Below the pieces are notes generated by a model. The model had not been told where the DNA came from and made no database searches. It saw only the letters and a list, made by a program, of their open reading frames with translations. The translations under genes and the position numbers were made by a program. Below are positions 1 to 50,150 of a DNA stretch of 64,000 bases, in pieces; the first letter of the stretch is position 1, and every line of letters starts with the position of its first letter. Origin of the DNA: Echinarachnius parma. Lineage: Eukaryota > Echinodermata > Echinoidea > Clypeasteroida > Echinarachniidae. The stretch spans positions 1-64,000 of the forward strand of contig JBAMJV010005542.1 in the NCBI GenBank assembly GCA_037951105.1. Reading direction: 5' to 3'.

Positions 1-1263
1 ATGCTGCTGACTAGAGCTTCAATAAGGACGGGTTCGTTAGCTGGCTATTGTGTCGTATCTGGGTTTTAGACAAACATGGACTGAGATGGAGAGGGTGTGG
101 GAAAAGTTTGTTCAGGGATCTAGTAACTATTTATTTATTTATTCATGGTATTAAATTTGAACATGTACATGTATGGCAGCAAACAAGCTGAATTGCACGT
201 GCTAAACATTCAATTAATCAAAACAAACAATGTAATTCATATATTAAAACACAAACCATAATTGTGAAGTTTAAATTATATGTATATAAACATAAACTAC
301 ATCTGAAACAACCAAAATCTCTTGCATCTCTAGTGGTCCTTTCATGCCTGGTTGTTGTATTGAACCCTATTTAGATACATTTTATATTTGATCTATATTT
401 ACAAAATGATGCATGATTATTATCAGAAAATATGCTATCCTGCACATAGAGAAGGCTCCAACTTACAAGATGGCGGGCATAACTGATTTTAGGCCAAAAT
501 TGACTTAGAGCCAGATGCTCGTTTTGGGAAAATTATCGGAAATAACTTTATTGACCAACTAATTGATTAGTATTGTTGAAATAGCATAAAAAGAGGCGTG
601 TGTGGAAAAATCCGAACCTTAGTATCGTTAAATGCAGAAATATCAGTTAAAACGTTTATGAAAGCTGCTGACATTGAGCCTAAATTCACCGTCGGTTTGG
701 CTCGTCTACGCTGGCCACATCTATACGCTCGTTTGTGCGATACGCTCATGCGAAACCTGTGTGCCGCATTGCCATAGGATTAGCACGCAGCACACGAGGG
801 TGCATATCAACATTCAACCGTCGGCGATATTAATTTACAGTATTAAAATGAGTTTTATGATTTACCAAATATATCAATTAGTAGGCGTTTTCCAGGTCAA
901 ATTTGTATCATCCCGTATTAGTAAAAACATATTCTTTCACATGGTTGGTAATAAGAGCGTACATTTCATTTTTTGTGTGTGGGGCATTTCCTACTACTGG
1001 CATTTCCCTTTAATGCCCTTCTCACTCTCACCCAAAGCCCATATATTCTAGACAAAATTTGCAATTCCCTTTTCTCACCAACACTGGGTAAACAGCGATT
1101 GTGCAACAGTTATGGAACAAGCAGCGATGCACGCCTGCACACAAAGTCAATATTGATGAGATGCCCATTTATCGATCGTTGGGCACACATACCACGCACA
1201 GGAAAAAAAACCCCAGAATAACACGGATCGGATAAGGAGGCAACTGTGATTGTATAAATAGAA
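1..1263. other. AT-rich intergenic or intronic DNA, no gene seen
   Basis: No open frame here looks protein-like. Around 423-525 there is a diverged match to the fold-back family at 12.5 and 38.2 kb: a 'cacatagagaaggctccaac...aagatggcgggc' segment resembles 'agaggaggctccgacc...acgatggtatgc' at 12.66 kb. At about 1015-1040 the phrase 'gcccttctcactctcac' matches the outer end of the same family. This may therefore be a decayed copy. The rest is unassigned. Confidence 0.5.
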
Positions 1264-1387
1264 GAAGGAAAGAGGATGATAGGAAGAGACGGTGAAAGAG
1301 AGAGAGATGGAGAGATAGATTAGCTGAAGGAAAGAGGATGATAGGAAGAGACGGTGAAAGAAAGAGAGATGGAGAGATAGATTAGCT
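1264..1387. repeat. Two-copy 62-bp purine-rich tandem repeat
   Basis: A purine-rich unit starting 'gaaggaaagaggatgatag' begins at 1264 and again at 1326, almost unchanged, giving a 62-bp period. It is simple local duplication in GA-rich DNA. Confidence 0.75.
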
Positions 1388-1717
1388 AAAATTTTGGTCT
1401 AAACCCGTTCAGGTTGGTTAAAAATAATCAGGGTGTATTCTATTAACATGTTGCTAAGTACGAGAACCGGGTGGGCTATGTGCAAAGTCTATAAGGATTT
1501 CAGAATATTTAAGGGAATGCATGCTATACCAAAAGCAACTAATCCATCGCTAGATACATGTAAGTCCTCCCCCCTTTATATATCATCATGTTTAAGATAT
1601 TGCTTGTGATGTGATTGTTCACAGTTCTGTGCAATGAAAAACACAAATTGTTTGATCATTCTGCAGGCATTTATGTACAAAACTATCATGATACTTCAAC
1701 CCATTGCCCTATATATT

Positions 1718-2074
1718 AACCCATCGCCTATGGGGACCTGGTGGGTCCTGTATTTACTCTATGGGGATTGTAAAATCCAGTAGGGAACAGGGTACTCCAT
1801 TGCATATGGGAACCTGGCAGGCCCCATATTTACTCTATGGGGATTGTAAAATCTAGTAGGGAACAGATTAACCCACTGCCTACAGGAACCTGATATATGT
1901 AAAATATATTAGGGAACAGGCTAACCCATAGCCTATGGGATATCTTGTGGGCCCTTAATTACCTCGTTAGGGATTGCAAAATCTAGTAGGGAACAGGCTA
2001 ACCCATAGCCTATGGGGAATCTTGTGGGCCCTTAATTATAGAGGGGTATTGCAAATTCTAGTAGGAGTGGGTTA
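1718..2074 (-). repeat. Tandem cluster of family A (80-bp TTAA) elements
   Basis: About five diverged copies of family A lie head to tail in reverse orientation. Hallmarks are 'TTAACCCATCGCCTATGGG' at one side, 'CTCTATGGGGATTGTAAAA' inside and 'AGTAGGGAACAGG' at the other. Internal copies have lost or changed some TTAA ends. The same cluster recurs at 3548-3904 as part of the 1.83-kb duplication. Confidence 0.7.
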
Positions 2075-2499
2075 ACATGCCAGATTAATCTTCTGGAGGG
2101 GTAAAGCGACCTTTTCCTTCTCCCCTAAGGTCCGTGCTCACAATTTAATAATGAACTGGATGAAGTTTTGTTAACGGCATGTTTCTGTCATTAATTGTGG
2201 GTGCGTTGAACCCATAATGCTCATTGCCCGGTCTGGAGATTGGAATTTGGTGTCTCTTGTTGGAAATCAAGGGGCCTTGGTGATAGTACATGTTACTTTT
2301 AAAGGGATATGGTAACTTTGTTGACATACTGTGCACAAAGTGGTTAGTGGTTGATGAAATGTGTATTTTTGTGATCTGATATGTCCACTTAGTGATGTGT
2401 GAAAATTTAACTGTAAATGAGTGTCACATGACCAAGTAACGAGCGAAAATGCAAAGTGGTACTTTGTACACAGTTTTAAGCAGCGAAAAAATTAATATT

Positions 2500-2815
2500 T
2501 TTATTTCGGGGGCTCCATTTTCGGGGGCTACTTTTCCAACTTTCGGGGGCTACAAATATCCGGGCTCTTTTTCGAATTTCAGGGGCTACTAATAAGCTAT
2601 AATGCTGTAAGTGATCATTTTATAAGCATTTGATCACAATCCAAACAGAAAATCCCACAAAAAATCCCGAAAATCCCCCCCCCCCCAAAAAAAAAAAAAA
2701 CTATTTTTTTTTTTTTTTTTTTTTTCGGGGGCGAATTTTTTTTTTTCGGGGGCGAATTTGGGCATTTCGGGGGCGGATTTGCCCACCGCCCCCGTGTATT
2801 TTTTTCGCTGGTTTT
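2500..2815. repeat. TTTCGGGGGC-repeat element with C/A/T homopolymers
   Basis: The word 'TTTCGGGGGC' (with variants) recurs about seven times, flanking a run of about 14 C, a run of about 14 A and then about 22 T. Open frames here on both strands encode only Lys/Pro or Phe/Gly runs and are not genes. A second copy is at 4329-4645. Confidence 0.6.
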
Positions 2816-3547
2816 AAGTATCGAGTAGATAGTTAAAAATCCAAACACTTCAATCATAAATACATTTATAACGAAGGAGAAATTCAGAAAAGCGAAACCT
2901 GAGCCATGTTTGTACTGGAGATACAATTGCAATGAGATATGAGAGAACCGCTAGAGTTCTAGATAGGTTTTGTCGATTTACCTTTAAAGGGATATAGTAT
3001 GCATAATGTTGTCTGCATCAAACAATCTCACTTACATGTAGATCTCTAGTGGTTCTTTCATCCCTGTTTGTTTTCCTTTTACTAAGTATGAAGTCAGCTT
3101 TAGTTTCACATTTTTTCTTTGTGTTTGAGGTATTTATGATTCAATTTTAAGAAAATCCTGGGAATCATTTGAATTGTGTACACACTAATACATGTATGGC
3201 AATGAGGTAGCAAATTCCACTTTGTGTTTATTGCTCATTTCTCCGCCGTTTGGCATTCGTAAACTATGGGATATTCACACATCATTTAGTGGACATATCA
3301 CATCACAGATATACACATTGTATCAACCCTGCCTCATGTTGTTACTTTCTGAATATGTCAACAAAGTTACTGGATACTTTCTTTGCCATATATGATATTC
3401 AGTTAACATGGAATTTTCACACATCACTCAATGGACATACATATCAGATCACAGAAATGCACAATGAAAAACACAAATTGTTTGATCATTCTGCAGGCAT
3501 TTATGTACAAAACTATCATGATACTTCAACCCATTGCCCTATATATT

Positions 3548-3904
3548 AACCCATCGCCTATGGGGACCTGGTGGGTCCTGTATTTACTCTATGGGGATTG
3601 TAAAATCCAGTAGGGAACAGGGTACTCCATTGCATATGGGAACCTGGCAGGCCCCATATTTACTCTATGGGGATTGTAAAATCTAGTAGGGAACAGATTA
3701 ACCCACTGCCTACAGGAACCTGATATATGTAAAATATATTAGGGAACAGGCTAACCCATAGCCTATGGGATATCTTGTGGGCCCTTAATTACCTCGTTAG
3801 GGATTGCAAAATCTAGTAGGGAACAGGCTAACCCATAGCCTATGGGGAATCTTGTGGGCCCTTAATTATAGAGGGGTATTGCAAATTCTAGTAGGAGTGG
3901 GTTA
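3548..3904 (-). repeat. Second copy of the family A tandem cluster
   Basis: This is the duplicate of 1718-2074, 1830 bases downstream, with no difference that I noticed. Confidence 0.7.
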
Positions 3905-4328
3905 ACATGCCAGATTAATCTTCTGGAGGGGTAAAGCGACCTTTTCCTTCTCCCCTAAGGTCCGTGCTCACAATTTAATAATGAACTGGATGAAGTTTTG
4001 TTAACGGCATGTTTCTGTCATTAATTGTGGGTGCGTTGAACCCATAATGCTCATTGCCCGGTCTGGAGATTGGAATTTGGTGTCTCTTGTTGGAAATCAA
4101 GGGGCCTTGGTGATAGTACATGTTACTTTTAAAGGGATATGGTAACTTTGTTGACATACTGTGCACAAAGTGGTTAGTGGTTGATGAAATGTGTATTTTT
4201 GTGATCTGATATGTCCACTTAGTGATGTGTGAAAATTTAACTGTAAATGAGTGTCACATGACCAAGTAACGAGCGAAAATGCAAAGTGGTACTTTGTACA
4301 CAGTTTTAAGCAGCGAAAAAATTAATAT

Positions 4329-4645
4329 TTTTATTTCGGGGGCTCCATTTTCGGGGGCTACTTTTCCAACTTTCGGGGGCTACAAATATCCGGGCTCTTT
4401 TTCGAATTTCAGGGGCTACTAATAAGCTATAATGCTGTAAGTGATCATTTTATAAGCATTTGATCACAATCCAAACAGAAAATCCCACAAAAAATCCCGA
4501 AAATCCCCCCCCCCCCAAAAAAAAAAAAACTTTTTTTTTTTTTTTTTTTTTTTTCGGGGGCGAATTTTTTTTTTTCGGGAGCGAATTTGGGCATTTCGGG
4601 GGCGGATTTGCCCACCGCCCCCGTGTATTTTTTTCGCTGGTTTTA
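4329..4645. repeat. Second copy of the TTTCGGGGGC-repeat element
   Basis: This is the duplicate of 2500-2815. It differs in homopolymer lengths and in one G-to-A change in a 'TTTCGGGGGC' word near 4580. Confidence 0.6.
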
Positions 4646-5389
4646 AGTATCGAGTAGATAGTTAAAAATCCAAACACTTCAATCATAAATACATTTATAA
4701 CGAAGGAGAAATTCAGAAAAGCGAAACCTGAGCCATGTTTGTACTGGAGATACAATTGCAATGAGATATGAGAGAACCGCTAGAGTTCTAGATAGGTTTT
4801 GTCGATTTACCTTTAAAGGGATATAGTATGCATAATGTTGTCTGCATCAAACAATCTCACTTACATGTAGATCTCTAGTGGTTCTTTCATCCCTGTTTGT
4901 TTTCCTTTTACTAAGTATGAAGTCAGCTTTAGTTTCACATTTTTTCTTTGTGTTTGAGGTATTTATGATTCAATTTTAAGAAAATCCTGGGAATCATTTG
5001 AATTGTGTACACACTAATACATGTATGGCAATGAGGTAGCAAATTCCACTTTGTGTTTATTGCTCATTTCTCCGCCGTTTGGCATTCGTAAACTATGGGA
5101 TATTCACACATCATTTAGTGGACATATCACATCACAGATATACACATTGTATCAACCCTGCCTCATGTTGTTACTTTCTGAATATGTCAACAAAGTTACT
5201 GGATACTTTCTTTGCCATATATGATATTCAGTGAACATGGAATTTTCACACATCACTCAATGGACATACATATCAGATCACAGAAATGCACTATTTTATC
5301 AACCCTTTGTCAGTTTTTGCACATGTCAACAAAGTTACTAGATATATATATTGCAGCCTTCATCTCAAATGTACATTATATGATGACAC

Positions 5390-5999: not shown

Positions 6000-7075
6000 T
6001 AATTAAAGCATCATCGCAATATGCAGCTGTCTTTCAGCCGTATATAAATGCAGAGGAAGGGTAGAGGGTGGTGGGGAGTGGCAAGATTCGTTCGAGTATA
6101 AAAAGAGTTGGAAAGATGGAGAAAAGAAAACAACTTTGTTGAAGCCATAATATGCTGCATTAATCAGCATTTTTTTTCATGTGATAGCAATTTTTGTTTT
6201 CATTGACCATTAAGGCATTCAGGACTGATTGATTTTACTATATCATGTTATATCCATAGACCAAAGCCCAGAGTATTTTCGGGACCATGTAGGAAGACAT
6301 GTTGGCAAATCTCTGCAAATATTGCACATCGTTAAAATTGAAACTGATTCATTTTAAAAATCAAACTGTTTTATATTTTTCATAGAGTAGAATAAAGATG
6401 AGGTATTGAATTAAATGAAATCTCTTTCTCTAGAAAGTAGAAACCAATATCAACACATACAGATAACATAAGATGTAATTAATGTTAATCCATTCAGGAC
6501 TGGTCCTACAAATACTTTGTTTGTAATTTTTTGAAAATGCATCTTAAATATTAGAGGGATCTAGTTTATACTTTGTTCATATGTGCAAAAAACGATGAAT
6601 GGTTGATTATATGTGTATTTCTGTGATACAATATGCCCATGTAATAATGTGTGAACATTTCATGTTAAATGGATGTTTTATGGCTGAAAATGGCCCAGTA
6701 ATGAGCGAAAATGCAAAGGGATATTCGCTGACTAATTGCACTGACTTTGTACACAGTTATAACTTTCCAGTTGATAAGTCCGATCACCTCAATTGTAAAT
6801 ATCTTTTTAACGAAAGGGAAATTCAGAAAACCAAAACCTGTTCCATGCTTCTTTTTGTAATTCATCAAGGTAGGAGAGAACCACTAGAGTTCTAAGAAGG
6901 ATTTGTGGATTGATCAAAATGATTTGGCCTTGGATGGTTTAAAATAGGGAAAACATATTAATTTTGCAGATCCCCTGAAATGTCAATTAAGTATAGAATG
7001 CTAAGGATTGTGAGTAAATTGGAGATTTTGTGCTGATAAATTCCTTGTTGATGTACTACCATTATATAATTCTGT
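6000..7075. other. AT-rich DNA, no gene seen; family B traces
   Basis: The 98-residue open frame at 6599-6895 lacks protein character and overlaps sequence related to 2340-2930 ('gtgtgaaaatttaactgtaa', 'aaattcagaaaagcgaaacc'), so it lies in repeat DNA. Family B words ('CATTCAGGACTG', 'GTTATATCCATAGACC') occur at 6213-6290 and 6487-6512. Confidence 0.5.
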
Positions 7076-9239: not shown

Positions 9240-9765
9240 GAATTGATTTGACTATTTTTGAGTGGCTGTCGCTTCGATGAAAACCCCGCCTCATTGCCTT
9301 CTAAAGGACCTGTCGTAGGGATCAATAACAAGCATGACACATTCGATTGGGGATGACGTCCTTCGCCGAAAAGATGAATTCATCAAAAGTTGAAACGGCG
9401 AAGCATTACCATCTCAAGAATCCTTCAAATAAGATACATTTCACATTTGTTAGCCGTTAGATTCCACGCTTGCTTGTGTAGTTCTACATATCTTAGATAT
9501 TATGTAACATAAAGTCTCTTACAATTTCCTGTCGTATTGGATTTCTAATGGGCATGTAACACTAGAGGAGTGATGATGCATTTTGAAGAACGCACATTCA
9601 AGAAAACCTACATGATGTATAAAGATGTCAGAACGATTCTATCACACTGATCCTTCAAATCGGATATAATACTTTTGGTGTCATACTTTAGTTTTATTCA
9701 TCGTTATATGTAGTGAAGATCCAACTTAATTGCATTTGAATGGTTCTGCCAGAGAGCATCACTCA
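9240..9765. other. No gene seen; unassigned unique DNA
   Basis: No convincing coding signal. 9250-9400 is moderately CpG-rich ('ctgtcgcttcgatgaaaac', 'gatgacgtccttcgccg') compared with its flanks. The rest is AT-rich and leads into the minisatellite. Confidence 0.4.
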
Positions 9766-10373
9766 CACTCATGTAACATTCAAGTATCTGTCTCTCACAC
9801 TCATTTTACATTCAAGTATCTGTCTCTCACACTCATTTTACATTCAAGTATCTGTCTCTCACACTCATTTTACATTCAAGTATCTGTCCCTCACACTCAT
9901 TTTACATTCAAGTATCTGTCTCTCAAACTCATTTTACATTCAAGTATCTGTCTCTCACACTCATTTTACATTCAAGTATCTGTCTCTCACACTCATTTTA
10001 CATTCAAGTATCTGTCTCTCACACTCATTTTACATTCAAGTATCTGTCTCTCACACTCATTTTACATTCAAGTATCTGTCTCTCACACTCATTTTACATT
10101 CAAGTATCTGTCTCTCACACTCATTTTACATTCAAGTATCTGTCTCTCACACTCATTTTACATTCAAGTATCTGTCTCTCACACTCATTTTACATTCAAG
10201 TATCTGTCTCTCACACTCATTTTACATTCAAGTATCTGTCTCCCACACTCATTTTACATTCAAGTATCTGTCTCCCACACTCATTTTACATTCAAGTATC
10301 TGTGTCTCACACTCATTTTACATTCAAGTATCTGTCTCTCACACTCATTTTACATTCAAGTATCTGTCTCTCA
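9766..10373. repeat. 32-bp minisatellite, about 19 copies
   Basis: The unit contains ACATTCAAGTATCTG and TCTCACACTCATTTT and repeats every 32 bases with very few substitutions. Because 32 is not divisible by 3 and the unit has no stop in any forward frame, every frame stays open. This explains the ~230-residue open frames with a 32-residue period (e.g. 9730-10422 and 9740-10435). Flanking DNA at about 10565 holds a diverged single copy ('actcattctcattcatgtta'), suggesting local expansion. Confidence 0.95.
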
Positions 10374-13610: not shown

Positions 13611-13923
13611 GGGTGTTTCACAAAGATCCTAAGTTGAACTTTACTCTAAGTTGGACCTAACTATTATGGAAAGCCATTTGTAGCCTTAGAATAAACATAT
13701 TCAAGAGCAAGAATGCATGTATTTTTAATAGACTGTCATAAATTTTAAATCAAGAACATTGAATTTCCTTGATAATAGAAAATATTATTATGACTTTAAT
13801 CAGCATTTTATGGCTTAAAAAAAAAAAATTACAACAAATTTTCAAAGAAACTAATGGCTTTCCATAATTTTTAAGTCCAACTGAGAGTTAAGTTCAACTT
13901 AGGATCTTTGTGAAACACCCCCC
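13608..13923. mobile_element. TIR element, GTTTCACAAAGATCCTAAGTT family, 316 bp
   Basis: The left end GGGGGGTGTTTCACAAAGAT is mirrored by the right end ATCTTTGTGAAACACCCCCC. Homology extends about 70 bases inward on each side (AAGTTGGACCTAACTATTAT against ATAATTTTTAAGTCCAACTG, then AAAGCCAT against ATGGCTTT). The centre is AT-rich and non-coding. Other copies are at 57735-58012 and, truncated, at 61441-61570. It is a non-autonomous DNA transposon by structure. Confidence 0.85.
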
Positions 13924-43036: not shown

Positions 43037-43534
43037 AAGGGCCATTCTTTGAAAAGTGAAACTTTTTCGGAAAAATTGAAGTTTTATTTTTCTGTAGTTT
43101 TGTTCCATTTTCAGAATGATCCATGTGTAAAGTTTCATGAAATACATGATTTGAAGTTTAAAATTAAACTTTTTTACTCATTTGCATAAATTTACATATT
43201 TCAATATTTTTCTAATAATCATAATTCAGAAAATAATCAAGATATCAAAAGGATAATTAGCAAGCTCATTCTTCTCACTTTCCTGTACAGGTTGATACCA
43301 ACTTTGTAAAAATTCAACCTTTCATTCTTTTCTAAACCCGATATTATAAAATTCCCATTTTTCCATTCATATTGTACATGTCACACACGTGACCAACCCA
43401 AAATGTCACACACGTGACCAGACGTTGCCACATAATTAAGTACTATAAAACACAACGGTTTGATATAATTCTCATTCATTGCTATTGTTGTACTTACAAA
43501 TGTATAGTACTTCTCTGGTAATAAGATGAACATT
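43037..43534. mobile_element. Host element interrupted by the DIRS insertion (left part)
   Basis: 'GGGCCATTCTTTG' at about 43038 is the inverse of 'CAAGAATGGCCCC' at about 50137, one on each side of the DIRS element. The 15-mer GTCACACACGTGACC occurs twice here (43380 and 43405) and twice on the far side (49944 and 50124). I infer an older AT-rich repeat into which the DIRS element inserted. Confidence 0.4.
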
Positions 43535-43550
43535 ATCCATATCGAGATCC

Positions 43551-43694
43551 CTAACCAACCCCCTTCAACATTTGTATATCCATTTGGATGCACAGAAAAC
43601 AACTCGCTAAAAACCACCCTAAAAAGAAACTGCCTTGGACCGAGACTACACCACCTATATATACCTGGCGCTGGGCCATAATTGTCCTCTTTCA
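43551..43694 (+). repeat. DIRS left inverted terminal repeat
   Basis: It runs from CTAACCAACCCCCTTCAAC to 'AATTGTCCTCTTTCA'. It is identical by eye to the reverse complement of 49695-49838 over 144 bases. The unique outer extension 43535-43550 (ATCCATATCGAGATCC) is found again, inverted, in the ICR. Confidence 0.92.
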
Positions 43695-44439
43695 TTTGCG
43701 ACGCCTTAGAGACAGTCACGCTGAAAATCGCGCTCTTACATTTGATTCTAAGAATTTTCGTAGCAGTCTACAATCTAAAGTAAGACCGTTCCTTTTCTAT
43801 CTATCAGTGTAGCGCAATAACCCTATTTGATTTGTAAGTCCTTGGACCTTGTCAGAAGCGATTTTGAGACCATTTTCGGAGCTTTCTGTTAGGTTTTTCT
43901 GGCGCTCCGTTGGTGGTTAAGAAAATGACGCATGCGTGAATTTTTGGACGGCTCGCGGTGGGAGTGTTCCCCCGTAGTTACGGGCGAGATTCGGTCCGAG
44001 TTTTCACTCTCAGTTAAATTTTTTCTCGGGGTTTTTATACCTCGGGTCATGTATAAGATTGATTTTTATTTGGGCTTTCTCGGCCCCCTCGTTCGGGGGG
44101 TCTTGCGTCTTGGCTCGTGTATAATGTTGCTTCCTCTCTTTCCATGGCCGTCAATCATTTCGGAGACGTTGTGCTCGATTCATGAATGATGTTGAAAGTT
44201 TTTTATTTTTTTATTTTTGATGTCATGTTCGTATTCTTGCATGCCCGCCATTTTGTTTTTATAACCTTGTTGTGGTGTGTGTTGGCTCGACCTCGGGGTC
44301 GTGGCTTGTCCTTTGTTGGCCTTTGTTTTGTTGAGGGGGGGTGGTGCCTCGTCGGGGTCACCATGGGTTGAAACATGTGTTGGGGAGAGGTGGTGTCGGG
44401 GTTCTTGGCCCCTCCACCCCCTTCCCCCCCCCCCCCCTC

Positions 44440-44509
44440 CCACCCCCCCTCCCCCACACTTTAAAAAAAAAAAAAAAAAAAAAAAAGTGCGGGGGTGCCC
44501 TCGAAGGGA

Positions 44510-44543
<34 letters not shown>

Positions 44544-44600
44544 TGAAAAAAAAAAAAAAAAAAATTATTTTTTGTTAAAAAAAAAAAAATAATAATTGAG
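44440..44600. repeat. Poly-A blocks inside the DIRS element
   Basis: Runs of about 26, 30, 20 and 12 A, separated by 'GTGCGGGGGTGCCCTCGAAG', 'CTTG' and 'TTATTTTTTGTT', follow a C-rich stretch. Lys-rich open frames across it are products of composition. Confidence 0.85.
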
Positions 44601-45216
44601 TGCTTATGGGGGGATGCTAACCTCCCTTTTTTCCTTTGGTTTTTTCTTACCTTGTTCCTTTGTGCATCTAGGTATGACATCGGATGATGGTTGGGTGGAC
44701 GTCTTGTCGGCCTCGTCCGGCGAGGGTCACGAGACGGGGAGTTTGAGGCCGGGTTCCCTTCCCCCGGGGCGTTCAATGTCGGTTCCGGGGGAACCAAATT
44801 TAGAATCCCGTGCTACTAATTCGCGCCTCACGGATGGGCGAAGCAGTAGCTGTGGCACCCAGGGGTATCCTATGGCTAGAGGGTTAGTAGGGTCCCCTGA
44901 AGACGGTCCCCCTATCATCGTAGGGCCCGGGGATCGTGGCGTCAGCCGGGGTGCCGTCCCCGGTTGTAATTCGCCTATGATGTCCGGCTTTGGCCACGGT
45001 GAGCAGTTCAAGACTCGGGCCATTTCTCACCGCACACGTAAGTCCTCTCGCAAGCCGGGTAAGTCCGCTCTTTCCATAGCTTTTGACGGGCGCGGGACAC
45101 CGCGCCCGGTGCACTCGAAACGTCGCACCCAGCATGGACGAGTGACTTCTTCTCCCGGGATTCCTGACCGAGGGAGGCCAGTCCCCTCTGGACCAGGGGT
45201 AAGTCCCATGACGTGA
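44596..45216 (+). CDS. Gag-position ORF remnant in DIRS element (unassigned)
   Basis: A 206-residue frame, with another plausible Met at 44671 (MTSDDGWVDVL). It is rich in Gly, Ser, Pro and Arg, with a basic stretch near residues 150-185 (HRTRKSSRKPGKS, KRRTQHGR). No zinc knuckle or other domain was recognised. Its place, first after the left repeat and on the sense strand, is where gag would lie. The sequence is partly repeated downstream at 45826-46372, so the frame may be a reiterated, decayed fragment. Confidence 0.3.
   Translation: MSAYGGMLTSLFSFGFFLPCSFVHLGMTSDDGWVDVLSASSGEGHETGSLRPGSLPPGRSMSVPGEPNLESRATNSRLTDGRSSSCGTQGYPMARGLVGSPEDGPPIIVGPGDRGVSRGAVPGCNSPMMSGFGHGEQFKTRAISHRTRKSSRKPGKSALSIAFDGRGTPRPVHSKRRTQHGRVTSSPGIPDRGRPVPSGPGVSPMT
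44741..44970 (+). repeat. DIRS internal module, copy 1
   Basis: It contains 'GCCGGGTTCCCTTCCCCCGG', 'GCGCCTCACGGATGGGCGA', 'TGTGGCACCCAGGGG', 'CTGAAGACGGTCCCCCTATC' and 'GTCCCCGGTTGTAA'. These recur in order at 45826-46050, and in part at 45628-45742. Confidence 0.75.
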
Positions 45217-45627
45217 TTCCTTCGCTTAGAATAAACCGCTTATCAGGCTGACAAGCGGTATGATATTTCAGGTCTCAAACCTGCATCGTCTAGATTTGTA
45301 TTATTGTTGTCACTTCCTTATTACTAGCCCCTCTCTCGGTGGTAGCACTGGGCCTCGGGGTCAGTTAACACAATTGGGATTGTTGTCAGTAGTTGATAGA
45401 ATTGTTAGAAACCGATAGGAATGTGATTGAGTTGAGTACCACGGTGGTGGAAATCTAATCAGCGCTTCGGCCGTTTTTTCGTGTTATTTATAGCGCGGCC
45501 CCCTCGGAGGGGGCCTTTGCAGCAGCGCTCCGCCCCCTCCCCCCCCCCCCCCCCCCGAGATGGGGGGGGGGGTGTCTCGTTCCGCGCCGCAGCCCCCGCG
45601 GGGGGGCTAGGCTCAGAGATTTGTTGC

Positions 45628-45742
45628 CGGGTTCCCTTCCCCCGGTTCGCTGTGTGTTGGGACCGGGGGGGTATGGTTTTTTTTTTTTGGAACTCCGTTC
45701 TGCCACACAGGTGGGCAAGACAATGTATGTAACACCCAGGTG
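45628..45742 (+). repeat. DIRS internal module, copy 2 (partial)
   Basis: 'GCCGGGTTCCCTTCCCCCGG', 'TTGGGACCGGGGGGGTATGG', 'CACAGGTGGGCAAGACAATG' and 'AACACCCAGGTGAG' align with the left half of the module at 45826. Confidence 0.65.
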
Positions 45743-45825
45743 AGTTTGTTGTGTGTGGTATCTAAGCTAGGTCTTGTGCTGCCCTCTCGTTGGCCTCGGG
45801 TAGCGAGGATCGCGAGTCAGGGCGA

Positions 45826-46372
45826 TTGAGGCCGGGTTTCTTCCCCCGGTTCGAGTTGAGTTGGGACCAGGGGGAATGGATTTTCACTCCCGTTTTGCCT
45901 TTCGCGCCTCACGGTTGGGCGAGGCAATGTTGTGGCACCCAGGTGATCCCTTGGCTTAAGGTTTGTAGGGTGATCCTGAAGACGGTCCCCCTATCACTGC
46001 AGGGCCCGGGACCGTTGCGCCAGCCTAGGTGCTATCCCCGGTTGTAAGTCGCAGGCGGTACGGTAAGGCCGACTAACCCCAGCTTTAGATAATTAAGCTA
46101 TATTAAAGCTAGCTGGGGTTCGCCACGGTAAAAGATGTTATTCCCCGGGCCACTTCTTACCTTTACCAATAAGTCCTCTCACAAGCAGGAGTAGCCAGCT
46201 CGTTCCGAGGCCTTTGACGCACGTGGGTCAGCAGTGCATCCAGGAGCCTACTGGGCATCGTCCAGCTTACGACCATACCACGCTGGTTATATCTACCCAG
46301 GATGGACGGGCTACTGCTTATTCCCGGATACCTGGTCTCGGTAGGCCAGTTCCCACCAGGCCGTGGGTAAGT
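45826..46372 (+). repeat. DIRS internal module, copy 3 plus its extension
   Basis: 'GCCGGGTTTCTTCCCCCGG' through 'CTGAAGACGGTCCCCCTATC', then 'GCCACGGTAAAAGATG', 'AATAAGTCCTCTCACAAGC', 'GGTAGGCCAGTTCCCACC' follow the same order as 44741-45205. An extra 'AGCTTTAG..CTAGCTGGGG' inverted pair near 46080-46115 is unique to this copy. Confidence 0.7.
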
Positions 46373-46457
46373 ACTCTTAGTCTTGCGGCTGTTTCTGTCC
46401 GTTCTGTCGGCGCTCCCCCTGGTGCTGTGGTACAGGGGGATGTGATGTACATTTCGG

Positions 46458-46532
46458 GGTGCCGTGGCGCAGCGGTAACGCCTCTGACTCCAGGTCAGAA
46501 GACTGCGTGTTCGCATCACGTTGGGGTCACCA
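46458..46532 (+). tRNA. tRNA-Trp(CCA)-like sequence with encoded CCA, probably a pseudogene or SINE head
   Basis: The 72-base body (46458-46529) folds as a cloverleaf. A box TGGCGCAGCGG; anticodon stem TCTGA/TCAGA enclosing loop CTCCAGG, anticodon CCA at 46490-46492; T arm GCGTG/CACGT with loop TTCGCAT (B box). The D-arm, anticodon and T-arm sequences closely follow metazoan tRNA-Trp. The acceptor stem GGTGCCG/TGGGGTC has several G-T pairs and one G-G mismatch. The discriminator A is followed by CCA, normally added after transcription in animals. That and the location inside a DIRS element argue for a retroposed, tRNA-derived sequence. Confidence 0.6.
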
Positions 46533-47959
46533 TTATGTGATATGGTTCTTTGGTGTGTATATATTTAGAGTTAAATTTGAAGTTTGTCCCATACTCGTTG
46601 CTCATGACAGTGCGACAATGTATGAGGGAATAGATTTTATGATGTGGCTTCCAGGAGATCCCGTTACTTTAGGTAGTGGGATCGATCCGTGCGCTAGCCA
46701 GGGTGTCGCCCCGGGCTATTAGACGCTAGCGTAATTTTTGATAATTGCCACGGTAAATTAATTAAGAAAGGAGCCATGTTATGGCTTGTATTTAAATTTT
46801 GGTTACGCATATGGATAAGTTCCTGTCGCTCTCAGTGAATGCTATTTGATTCTTGAGGAGCGGGAGTATGGTTTGAGCCCCATCTAGACGTAGGTCATGC
46901 TGTGAGCTGTATTAAAATTCTCTCGATATAGTCGTCTTGACCGCATGTCCTTGACGCACGGGTTGATGCGCGTCACTTGCCACGGGGTGTTTAGTCACCT
47001 GCGCGGGGTAGGTTCCTTTGGTTCCGTTGGTTCCTTTGGCTCCCCCGGGATCCCTGTCCGCGGTAGACCTATCCGGGTGCCCGCGCGACCCCTGGCGGGT
47101 CCCCTTATCGCTGTCCTTGCTCTTGTCCCGTGGGGTGGGGGGGGGAGCCGGTGCCCCCCCCCCCCCACCGACTTCCCTTTGGTTTTTACCTTCGGGCGTC
47201 TAGGTGGGGCGCCGGACAGTTATATTTTTTGTGGAGGTTTCGCTTCCCTCGTCGAGTGAGGGTCGCGAGGCTGCAGGATGAGGCATCTGTTTGCGGACCA
47301 GGCGGGTCCAGATTCGTGCTCGGACGAGATCGCCAGGGCTTTAGGTTGCGTCCTGGCAGGGTCGCCACGACTCTTGTCTTATGGCTTGTTTGTCTACTAC
47401 TAACTCCCCTAGGCCTGTGTGGATCCGGCCCGGTTTGAGCCCGATCTCAGGGCATAACGTTGCCTGTGGGTCTGGGTTATGCGCCGGGCTCCGTTGCGAT
47501 GGCCAGTGGGCCATTGTTGGTTTTAAGCCACGCGATCGGCGTTGTTTATGTTGTGGACAAGGAGTTGTATCATAGGGTCAGCCTCGTTAAGGCGGTTACT
47601 CATCAGTTCGATTCCCCTTTCTCAGTCGAATGCTCGTGTGCACGGATGGCGGGCTGGCCATTGCATTTAAGACAGTTTGGCTTTGATAGGGTGGTTAGCC
47701 AACTTGGTATCCCAACGTTCTATACCTCGTTTTCCGGGGGAGGACTGAATTTTCCGTGGACACAGTCGGGGTTTTCTTCTTCCTCAGCCCCGTTGCTGTG
47801 TAACTAAACCTGATCCGGTGTCGTTGGTTCCCTTGCGTACGAGGCTCCCCGGCTGATATTGTATCTCGGTTTTTTTTTGCCGTTCTAGATGTCCCTTGTT
47901 TCAGCATGGAGTCTTTCATTCATCCCCACGCCCCCGTTCGCCTAGGCTGTTGGCAGTCT

Positions 47960-48503
47960 CTCGGTTCCCAGGTTGGGTTGCGGTCAGTTCAGTGCCGAGG
48001 CCTTCTCATTTGGCCTGAAGTCCTTCTCCAGGGACCCCTTTCGGCAGGTGTCGGTGGTGCCAGGCTCCCACGATCTCGAGGAGTCCGGATATTCTCTTTT
48101 CAGAGGTCGTACTTCGTCTGCTCCTTGCAGAGATACTCAGTTGGGTCAGGTCGCTAGGTCCCTCATCATCGAGTTGAAGTCACGAGTGATTCCTTCGGGT
48201 GGTTCAGATGCCTTCCGTCGCCTACGCATGAGGCTGTTGGCTCCGGCGGAGTCTTGGCAGGTTCCCGGCCTCCTCATCAGCTTGGTGGTCCTAGTGCCGG
48301 TTGTCGTTTCTCCTTCCGGTCCCTACAAATGCTCCAGATGCAGGATATTTGGGGGGTTTTTCTTCCGCCCCTCCAGGGACGGTCGGTCGGGGTTGGGTTC
48401 CCGACAGTCCCATGGTCGTTGCAGATATAAGCTGGCGGGGGGGGGACGCGAGGCCGTCTCCTCCCGTCTCAATGGCTCCTTCTCCCCACGGTCTTCAGGA
48501 TGA
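47960..48503 (+). CDS. Uncharacterised ORF in the DIRS body
   Basis: A 176-residue frame (Met at 47973) with charged, mixed composition for its first ~100 residues (DLEESGYSLFRGR, LIIELKSRVIPSGG), then compositionally odd. No RT or RNase H motif was seen (no YxDD-like motif). By position it could be a gag remnant or part of a decayed polyprotein. Confidence 0.25.
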
Positions 48504-48529
48504 TTTGCGGGGGGGCAATTAAGTCTTAA

Positions 48530-48885
48530 TGGACAATAGATTCCTTGAGAGTCATTTATCTGGCTTATGTGGGGTAGCTCACATGAAATAGTGATACACA
48601 TGATTGAGGTGACCTAATATGTATGTAGGTTGCCTATTACTGATGGCACTAACATTAGCAGTGTATCTGCGGTATTCGTCATGGCGCTCTATTTATATGA
48701 GAATGGGTTTATAGTGACAATATTTGGCTAGTATTGTAGTGGTGGAGTTTGCAATTTGAGGGCCAGAACATGGCTCATTTGTTGTTTTGCCTATGGTAAA
48801 GGAAATGCAAGTATTTGGTAAATGCTTGCCAATTGCAAACTTAATAATTTTATTTGAATTATACTGCATCGAGAGCCTAGTTCCC
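48530..48885. other. AT-rich interruption within the DIRS body
   Basis: About 350 bases of low-GC sequence, unlike the GC-rich flanks, sit immediately before the recombinase remnant, where RT/RNase H would normally end. It may be an insertion or a filler at a deletion. No repeat family was recognised. Confidence 0.4.
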
Positions 48886-48897
48886 GAATCATGCAGG

Positions 48898-49427
48898 CGC
48901 TTTGTGTTACGACGCCCATCTCCCAGGTCTCTGGTACCGTCCTGGGTCTCGACCGGTGTTCTCAGGCCTTGGTCCGTGCTCCAGGTTGAGCCTATGTTGA
49001 GGGCCTCCCTTGGCTGGAGCCGGTCCTGCCGGTCTTCCTGCTGGCGTTGGCCCTGACCCGAGGCGGAGTACCTGGCGCACCTTGTTAGCATTAGGTCAGG
49101 GCTGGTAAGAGATGGGTGGTGGTCGGCCCTTCCGTCCAAGGGGGCTGTTTATTACTGGGAACCCAGTTTTTTGCCCAGCCGCCGGCCCGGGGTCACAAGA
49201 CCCGGGCAATGGACGCGTCTGGGCTCCCCTTCGTTAATGGTGCTGGCGATTCTCGCAGCAGGACATGATACGCTTGTTTTTAGTCACTTGTCCATGCCCA
49301 CGAGTTCCGGGCGATGGCCGACTCGTGGGCTCTCGTTAACGGAGCCCCTGTTGGGCGAGGTTCTACGGGCTCCTTGCTGGGCGTCGCCAAATGCGTTCGT
49401 CTCATGTTATCGGCGAGACGTGGTGGC
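48898..49427 (+). pseudogene. Tyrosine recombinase remnant of the DIRS element
   Basis: DIRS recombinases are integrases that circularise and insert the element using an Arg...HxxR...Tyr set. The sequence reads RRPSPRSLVPSWVSTGVLR, then QVEPMLRASLGW, then in a second frame VFLLALALTR (candidate Arg box, CGA at 49059-49061). After a gap come HAHEFRAMADSWALVNGAP (His at 49299, Arg at 49308) and, after a one-base shift near 49350, LGEVLRAPCWASPNAFVSCY with Tyr at 49408-49410. Order and spacing fit the family, but at least two frameshifts and a stop (TAG at 49281) make it inactive. The location just before the ICR is as expected. Confidence 0.75.
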
Positions 49428-49552
49428 CGGAGGCCCGGTCCTTGCTGAGGCGGTTCTGGCGGCTGGCCCTATGTAGATGTAGTCTGCGTTGTCCGACCCC
49501 TCCTCCAGTCAGTAAGTATACTTCCCGTATGCTATTTGTGTGGGTCAGGGAT

Positions 49553-49651
49553 TATACAAATGTTGAAGGGGGTTGGTTAGGGATCTCGATATGGATTAAA
49601 TGAATCTTAGTGATTTCATTATCCATTAGAGATACTAACCAACCCCCTTCA
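49553..49651. repeat. DIRS internal complementary region (ICR)
   Basis: 49553-49596 is the exact reverse complement of the left outer end (43535-43578). 49597-49651 is the reverse complement of the right outer end (down from 49876). The junction reads ATATGGAT|TAAATGAATC. In DIRS elements this region templates completion of both ends. Confidence 0.92.
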
Positions 49652-49694
49652 TAAATTCCCTCCCGTCCTCCCCGCGTCGGTAGTCGTGCGCGTT

Positions 49695-49838
49695 TGAAAG
49701 AGGACAATTATGGCCCAGCGCCAGGTATATATAGGTGGTGTAGTCTCGGTCCAAGGCAGTTTCTTTTTAGGGTGGTTTTTAGCGAGTTGTTTTCTGTGCA
49801 TCCAAATGGATATACAAATGTTGAAGGGGGTTGGTTAG
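49695..49838 (-). repeat. DIRS right inverted terminal repeat
   Basis: Inverted partner of 43551-43694, with no mismatch seen. The unique right extension (49839-49876, TATCTCTAATGGATAATG...) is mirrored in the ICR. No target-site duplication was evident, as expected for recombinase-mediated insertion. Confidence 0.92.
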
Positions 49839-49876
49839 TATCTCTAATGGATAATGAAATCACTAAGATTCATTTA

Positions 49877-50150
49877 ATAGCTATTCATATTTTAAAGAAT
49901 TTTCCAAATGAAATTTAGTTATGAAAAAAGCGCTCCGTGCGAAGTCACACACGTGACCCATGCCATTTGACCTCTGACATTGAGTTACGTAATCCTTATA
50001 AAATCTTTTGTGTTAAGTTTGAAAGACTACATCATATTCAAGTCACATATGAAGTAAAAAATCATTATAGTCTCATACTTACTGAAATATAAGCATCCCA
50101 TTTCAAAATTTGTCATGTTTTGGGTCACACACGTGACCAAGAATGGCCCC
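49877..50150. mobile_element. Host element interrupted by the DIRS insertion (right part)
   Basis: AT-rich DNA with GTCACACACGTGACC at 49944 and 50124, ending 'CCAAGAATGGCCCC', the inverse of the left edge near 43038. Confidence 0.4.

Follow-up and report, generated by a model that had tools for sequence, protein, structure and literature searches.

The stretch analysed here (the window: 64,000 nt of contig JBAMJV010005542.1 from the echinoid Echinarachnius parma) contains at positions 43535–49876 a mobile element that is very probably a member of a young DIRS1-like family that is non-autonomous, has a body of ~6.3 kb encoding nothing recognisable and is moved in trans. To judge from its sequences, the family appears to have multiplied recently across the host genome, most likely thanks to the enzymes of another element. 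A preliminary description of this single copy had seen a DIRS retrotransposon with intact ends, a recombinase remnant and a broken body; its account of the ends agrees with what other copies show, and that of the body has to be revised.

Ends and genomic copies of the element

In the host assembly (1.2 Gb, 14,790 contigs), where 40 of the 269 candidates from a first look were scored, we found at least 40 left ends, including that of the window, with 98–100% identity over 166 bases. Besides the window copy, we fetched the 20 best matches to the left end, giving a set of 21 copies. All 20 had the same body as the window element, at different places, and copy sizes ranged from 4.6 to 6.5 kb. Large internal deletions occurred in L012 (4555 bp) and L018 (4808 bp) and a smaller one in L017; of two additional copies, L055 is a family member with a 1.6-kb insertion, and L056 has lost element positions 461–4712, so that ~0.46 kb remains on its left side and 1.63 kb on its right. 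Pairwise divergence among the 21 copies was 0.08–1.9% (median 1.2%), with a mean of 0.17% private changes per copy and five such changes in 6227 sites for the window copy, in agreement with the recent movement already proposed. Variation along the body was mostly even, except in a low-complexity stretch (43935–44735). The element ends were not found in viral contigs or in plasmids.

The two inverted terminal repeats (ITRs), described earlier as free of mismatches, are 100% complementary over 144 nt and bear short outer extensions. The internal complementary region (ICR, 49553–49651) consists of two halves that are, as also claimed, exact complements of the left and right outer ends and that share 2 nt, AT (49595–49596); the right complementary segment, 49822–49878, ends in the AT of the target. 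ITRs with short extensions, together with an ICR complementary to both outer ends and with briefly overlapping halves, are features of DIRS1-like elements and support the DIRS layout. This arrangement is far beyond chance: a 36-nt ICR junction had 135 genome matches at ≤3 mismatches, versus 0 for the reversed control. The outermost 18 left bases were identical in 21 of 21 copies and the outermost 24 right bases in 20 of 21 (the exception was L016), which confirms the limits given to the element. The 100-nt ICR was invariant (100 of 100 positions in all 21 copies), against ~5 variable sites expected per 100 bases by a hand estimate that is inflated by the low-complexity stretch; moreover, the copies were chosen by their left end, which one half of the ICR repeats in complementary form.

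No two of the 21 copies shared flanks at ≥92% over ≥150 bp, and segmental duplication was accordingly rejected as their source. Several copies sit in older interspersed repeats, and related repeats without the element were found for four of the 21 (L009, L014, L025 and L027). None of these four empty-site comparisons showed a target duplication, as the preliminary description had supposed for the window copy from the DIRS layout; the cleanest is that of L027, for which two empty relatives, similar on both sides, join without a gap. One of them lies in the window itself (13789–13912, minus strand). The two bases to the right of the element were AT in 15 copies, TT in three, GT in two and CC in one. 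AT has a background of 9.4% in the window, and its excess at the right junction (P ~1e-11) points to a crossover at the AT dinucleotide.

The copies are not scattered evenly. Among the 100 ICR matches listed, 18 pairs were ≤100 kb apart, where 0.8 were expected and 5000 simulations gave a maximum of six. Six of these pairs stem from contig C4517, where four copies (L025–L027 and a fourth) lie inside a 61-kb stretch and share one orientation; direct comparison of flanks showed that the three copies with flanks read are separate insertions. DIRS-1 is reported (PMC5633606) to target its own copies; a preference for certain chromatin could also explain the clustering.

The common noncoding body

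The recombinase remnant of the preliminary description found no support from Pfam, tblastn or profile searches, and the reading frames of the body resemble those of shuffled sequence. Across the 21 copies, open frames reached 239 aa at most; in the window the longest forward frame had 185 codons (95% of shuffles gave ≤218), and stop density was also within the range of shuffled sequence. Pfam searches of ten forward frames of the body returned a single match, to a domain of unknown function and far under the cut-off. When the proteins of 12 recombinase loci in this genome were compared with the body by tblastn, all E values were ≥0.19, and a search of 208 open fragments with profiles made from recombinases (six) and RNase H fragments (six) gave E ≥1.7. 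The Pfam test, made without a DIRS RT query, detected no match to reverse transcriptase (RT); to that extent, the earlier statement that no RT is visible holds. A by-eye resemblance to the RT/RNase H junction of DIRS elements at ~47976–48250, accompanied by two weak tblastn pieces in the same order (E 0.5–0.8), was rejected as a recombinase or RT remnant, the profile search being empty there. The gag, RT/RNase H (with MT) and tyrosine recombinase frames of DIRS1-like elements were thus not found and, therefore, we file the element as a non-autonomous DIRS1-like derivative and not as a complete DIRS element.

The body contains an internal duplication whose units show ~74% identity in the 285 columns that align best. 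Coding constraint in these units was considered and rejected: their mismatches fall 30/39/40 by codon position, and the lengths of many gaps are no multiple of three. The noncoding body thus looks old and, because the copies differ by no more than 1.9%, its duplicated part would have been noncoding long before the present burst. A tRNA-Trp-like sequence (38.6 bits with the Rfam tRNA model), found in 20 of the 20 fetched copies, is perhaps a captured tRNA or the head of a short interspersed element (SINE).

The copies also form lineages. Among ~6250 sites, 124 variable ones were informative and 212 were private; nested shared variants define several noncoding lineages, and a tree of the body contained four splits with 100% ultrafast bootstrap support among noncoding copies. 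It follows from these four splits that noncoding copies have probably served as sources of others.

Probable mode of movement and candidate helpers

The ITR arms were identical and gapless in 17 of 21 copies, with small changes in L009, L016, L018 and L026. Positions 128 and 132 of the element vary between copies, yet within a copy the arms agreed in 21 of 21 cases at the former and in 20 of 21 at the latter, a level reached in none of 10,000 random re-pairings of arms. Neither position belongs to the 44-base part that is complementary to the ICR. A new change seems, therefore, to have passed between the arms at least twice, and matching changes in this part of the ITRs suggest arm-to-arm copying during the cycle.

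In the most likely cycle, a transcript of the element would be copied by the RT of another element, the outer ends would be rebuilt on the ICR as template, and the product would close into a circle. A tyrosine recombinase provided in trans would then join the circle into the genome at an AT dinucleotide, preferably at target sites with AT and without target duplication. The underlying model of DIRS replication has the ends rebuilt from the ICR and is, according to PMC5633606, not fully proven. Movement in trans had first been argued from perfect ends in one copy. It stands as the best inference, but perfect ITRs in a single copy are no proof on their own, and a copy this young would often keep them in any case; the many noncoding copies at different sites, with their nested shared changes, are the stronger evidence. 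A mobile noncoding family and natural derivatives such as L056 can help to map what is needed in cis.

A genome search with PF00589 gave 131 matches (148 of 259 candidates scored). Some correspond to four DIRS-type families with open recombinase frames (310–340 aa), known here from these frames and from ICR repeats. Perfect ICR/right-end repeats of 74–79 bp are present in the first (L032, L033, L034 and L038; L035, of the same type, has none), the second (L039 and L040) and the third (L050, with the recombinase end read). The fourth (L029, L030, L031, L036 and L037) has an imperfect palindrome (76–77%), its ICR being seen by eye. Other PF00589 matches, with frames of 441–564 aa, are presumably Crypton recombinases, judging from their motif. 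The autonomous relatives with the same ends that the preliminary description had suggested looking for were not found among the PF00589 matches scored and the 100 ICRs listed, nor was a longer copy with genes, L055 being longer by its insertion.

Several observations weigh against the reading that we prefer, a noncoding family moved in trans. Not one of the 131 PF00589 matches was found at ≤10 kb from any of the 100 ICRs listed, with only 148 of the 259 candidates scored, and the four DIRS-type families with open recombinase frames have other ends, none of which resembles the window's beyond two 18-nt matches (E 0.68). Among the empty sites, L014 joins without a gap but with a left-side likeness of only ~16 bases, and L025 and L009 show small gaps near the junction, so that insertion without target duplication, seen for these other copies, is clean only for L027. 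The agreement of variants between the ITR arms depends on two sites, and picking the 20 best left-end matches favours young copies. In addition, copies with another, perhaps coding, body may exist among the ICR matches. The exact 3′-body probe adjoined 77 of the 100 ICRs listed (all exact), leaving 23 without it. One of these 23, on contig C3414, is L018, a family copy with one probe mismatch; its absence from the probe list indicates that exact matches are listed first. The probe had 117 genome matches at ≤3 mismatches, those listed (100) being all exact, and among the 17 others are, at a minimum, L009 and L012, whose matches are exact and lie on later contigs. Therefore, no more than 15 of the 23 ICRs can have the probe beside them at ≤3 mismatches, and eight or more are deletion forms or carry other bodies.

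These ICRs, with the 35 beyond the 100 listed, leave room for a coding sister with the same ends, of which the noncoding copies would be deletion or decay forms. We regard this as possible, if well short of probable: deletion forms such as L056 exist, though L056 retains the probe, and no PF00589 match lay near a listed ICR. A coding sister is compatible with movement of the noncoding family in trans and would only name its helper. The helper might instead be one of the four DIRS-type families despite their different ends, given that they possess open recombinase frames and their own ICR repeats; we find this rather unlikely in view of the lack of end similarity past chance 18-nt matches and of their right ICR repeats, 74–79 bp where measured versus 57 here, which suggest another DIRS clade. 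It is similarly doubtful that we are dealing with a parasitic DIRS lineage, noncoding for a long time, that kept only its ends and uses a helper from a different DIRS clade or with quite different ends. If so, the ICR/ITR system alone would define what a DIRS recombinase and RT accept.

It is extremely improbable that we see one isolated, once autonomous DIRS copy whose genes disappeared after it had inserted, as the idea of a broken body implied. A lone copy with perfect ends and no genes does look like this, but the same noncoding body is common to every copy read (20 of 20 fetched, ≤1.9% divergence), its variation is mostly even outside 43935–44735, and no gene homology was found. Cryptons have a recombinase gene but no ITR plus ICR, and move as DNA only. 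A Crypton-like cycle for this family, with a DNA circle moved by the recombinase alone, would agree with duplication-free insertion, which fits any tyrosine recombinase. Such a cycle is nevertheless very unlikely: the window element has ITRs and an ICR and no recombinase frame was found in it, the ICR would have no evident use in a DNA-only cycle yet is conserved at 100 of 100 positions in 21 copies, and new variants match in both ITR arms.

Known systems and other features of the window

TOC1 of Chlamydomonas is a non-autonomous recombinase-type retroelement with PAT-like repeats; LARD elements, large, noncoding and presumably moved in trans, are of the long terminal repeat (LTR)/integrase type and produce target duplications. 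The window element has inverted repeats, not the split direct repeats of Ngaro, PAT and VIPER. SIRE, the truncated form of VIPER, is likewise a non-autonomous relative of a tyrosine-recombinase retrotransposon, although the repeats of VIPER are direct and split, not of the ITR plus ICR kind, and SIRE measures ~0.4 kb as opposed to 6.3 kb for the window element (PMC6681497). Table 3 of PMC3266345 gives conserved ITRs of 141–144 bp for the DIRS1-like elements GaDIRS2, SkoDIRS2 and LgDIRS2, compared with 144 in the window. DIRS1-like elements, including DIRS-1, have in that paper a short outer extension, a two-half ICR and no target duplication, as here. They also encode gag, RT/RNase H/MT and recombinase, of which no frames were found in the window element, and their ICR halves usually overlap by 3 nt, whereas we presume a 2-nt AT junction. 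The ICR halves listed there measure 38–57 in GaDIRS2, 86–88 on the right side in the mollusc elements AcaDIRS1/2 and LgDIRS1/3, and 67 in LgDIRS2. Those of the window (44–57) are nearer to GaDIRS2 than to the mollusc elements, with the host's other families (74–79) in between, which only hints at a different DIRS clade. A literature search, whose scope excluded most subscription journals, bioRxiv and Repbase, returned no paper with phrases such as 'non-autonomous DIRS'.

Table 1 Features of the element in the window.
Feature	Coordinates	Strand	Evidence
Whole element, probable non-autonomous DIRS1-like	43535..49876	+	termini and flanking sequence in 21 copies; element-free relatives of other insertion sites
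Left outer end	43535..43550	+	complement in ICR; first two bases AT, presumed crossover dinucleotide
Left conserved ITR, 144 nt	43551..43694	+	inverted pair
Noncoding body common to 20 fetched copies	43695..49552		no homology found, shuffle-like frames
Internal duplication, first copy	44691..45204	+	~74% identity to the second copy
Internal duplication, second copy	45774..46372	+	~74% identity to the first copy; no codon-phase bias between the two
tRNA-Trp-like sequence	46458..46532	+	Rfam tRNA
ICR half matching left end	49553..49596	+	complementary to 43535-43578
ICR half matching right end	49595..49651	+	complementary to 49822-49878
Right conserved ITR, 144 nt	49695..49838	-	inverted pair
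Right outer end past conserved ITR	49839..49876	+	complement in ICR; ends of copies
Target AT, first two right-flank bases	49877..49878	+	AT here in 15 of 21 copies

Around the insertion point, the motif TCACACACGTGACC occurs at 43381–43394, 43406–43419, 49945–49958 and 50125–50138. These are its only four occurrences in the window, where 0.02 would be expected, and a TATA-like stretch lies beside them near 43444. The element may have split a regulatory cluster at this place; the core CACACGTGAC was not found within 700 bp of any of the 20 other copies. Two repeats of the window, 6793–6915 and 13789–13912, have relatives elsewhere that hold L025 and L027, and can be used as empty sites. A 32-bp tandem repeat occupies 9762–10373, with 19 copies and 98% matches. 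Two further tandem arrays, 1715–2012 and 3545–3842, lie 1830 bp apart and have the same consensus units and scores, which suggests a recent duplication of that stretch.

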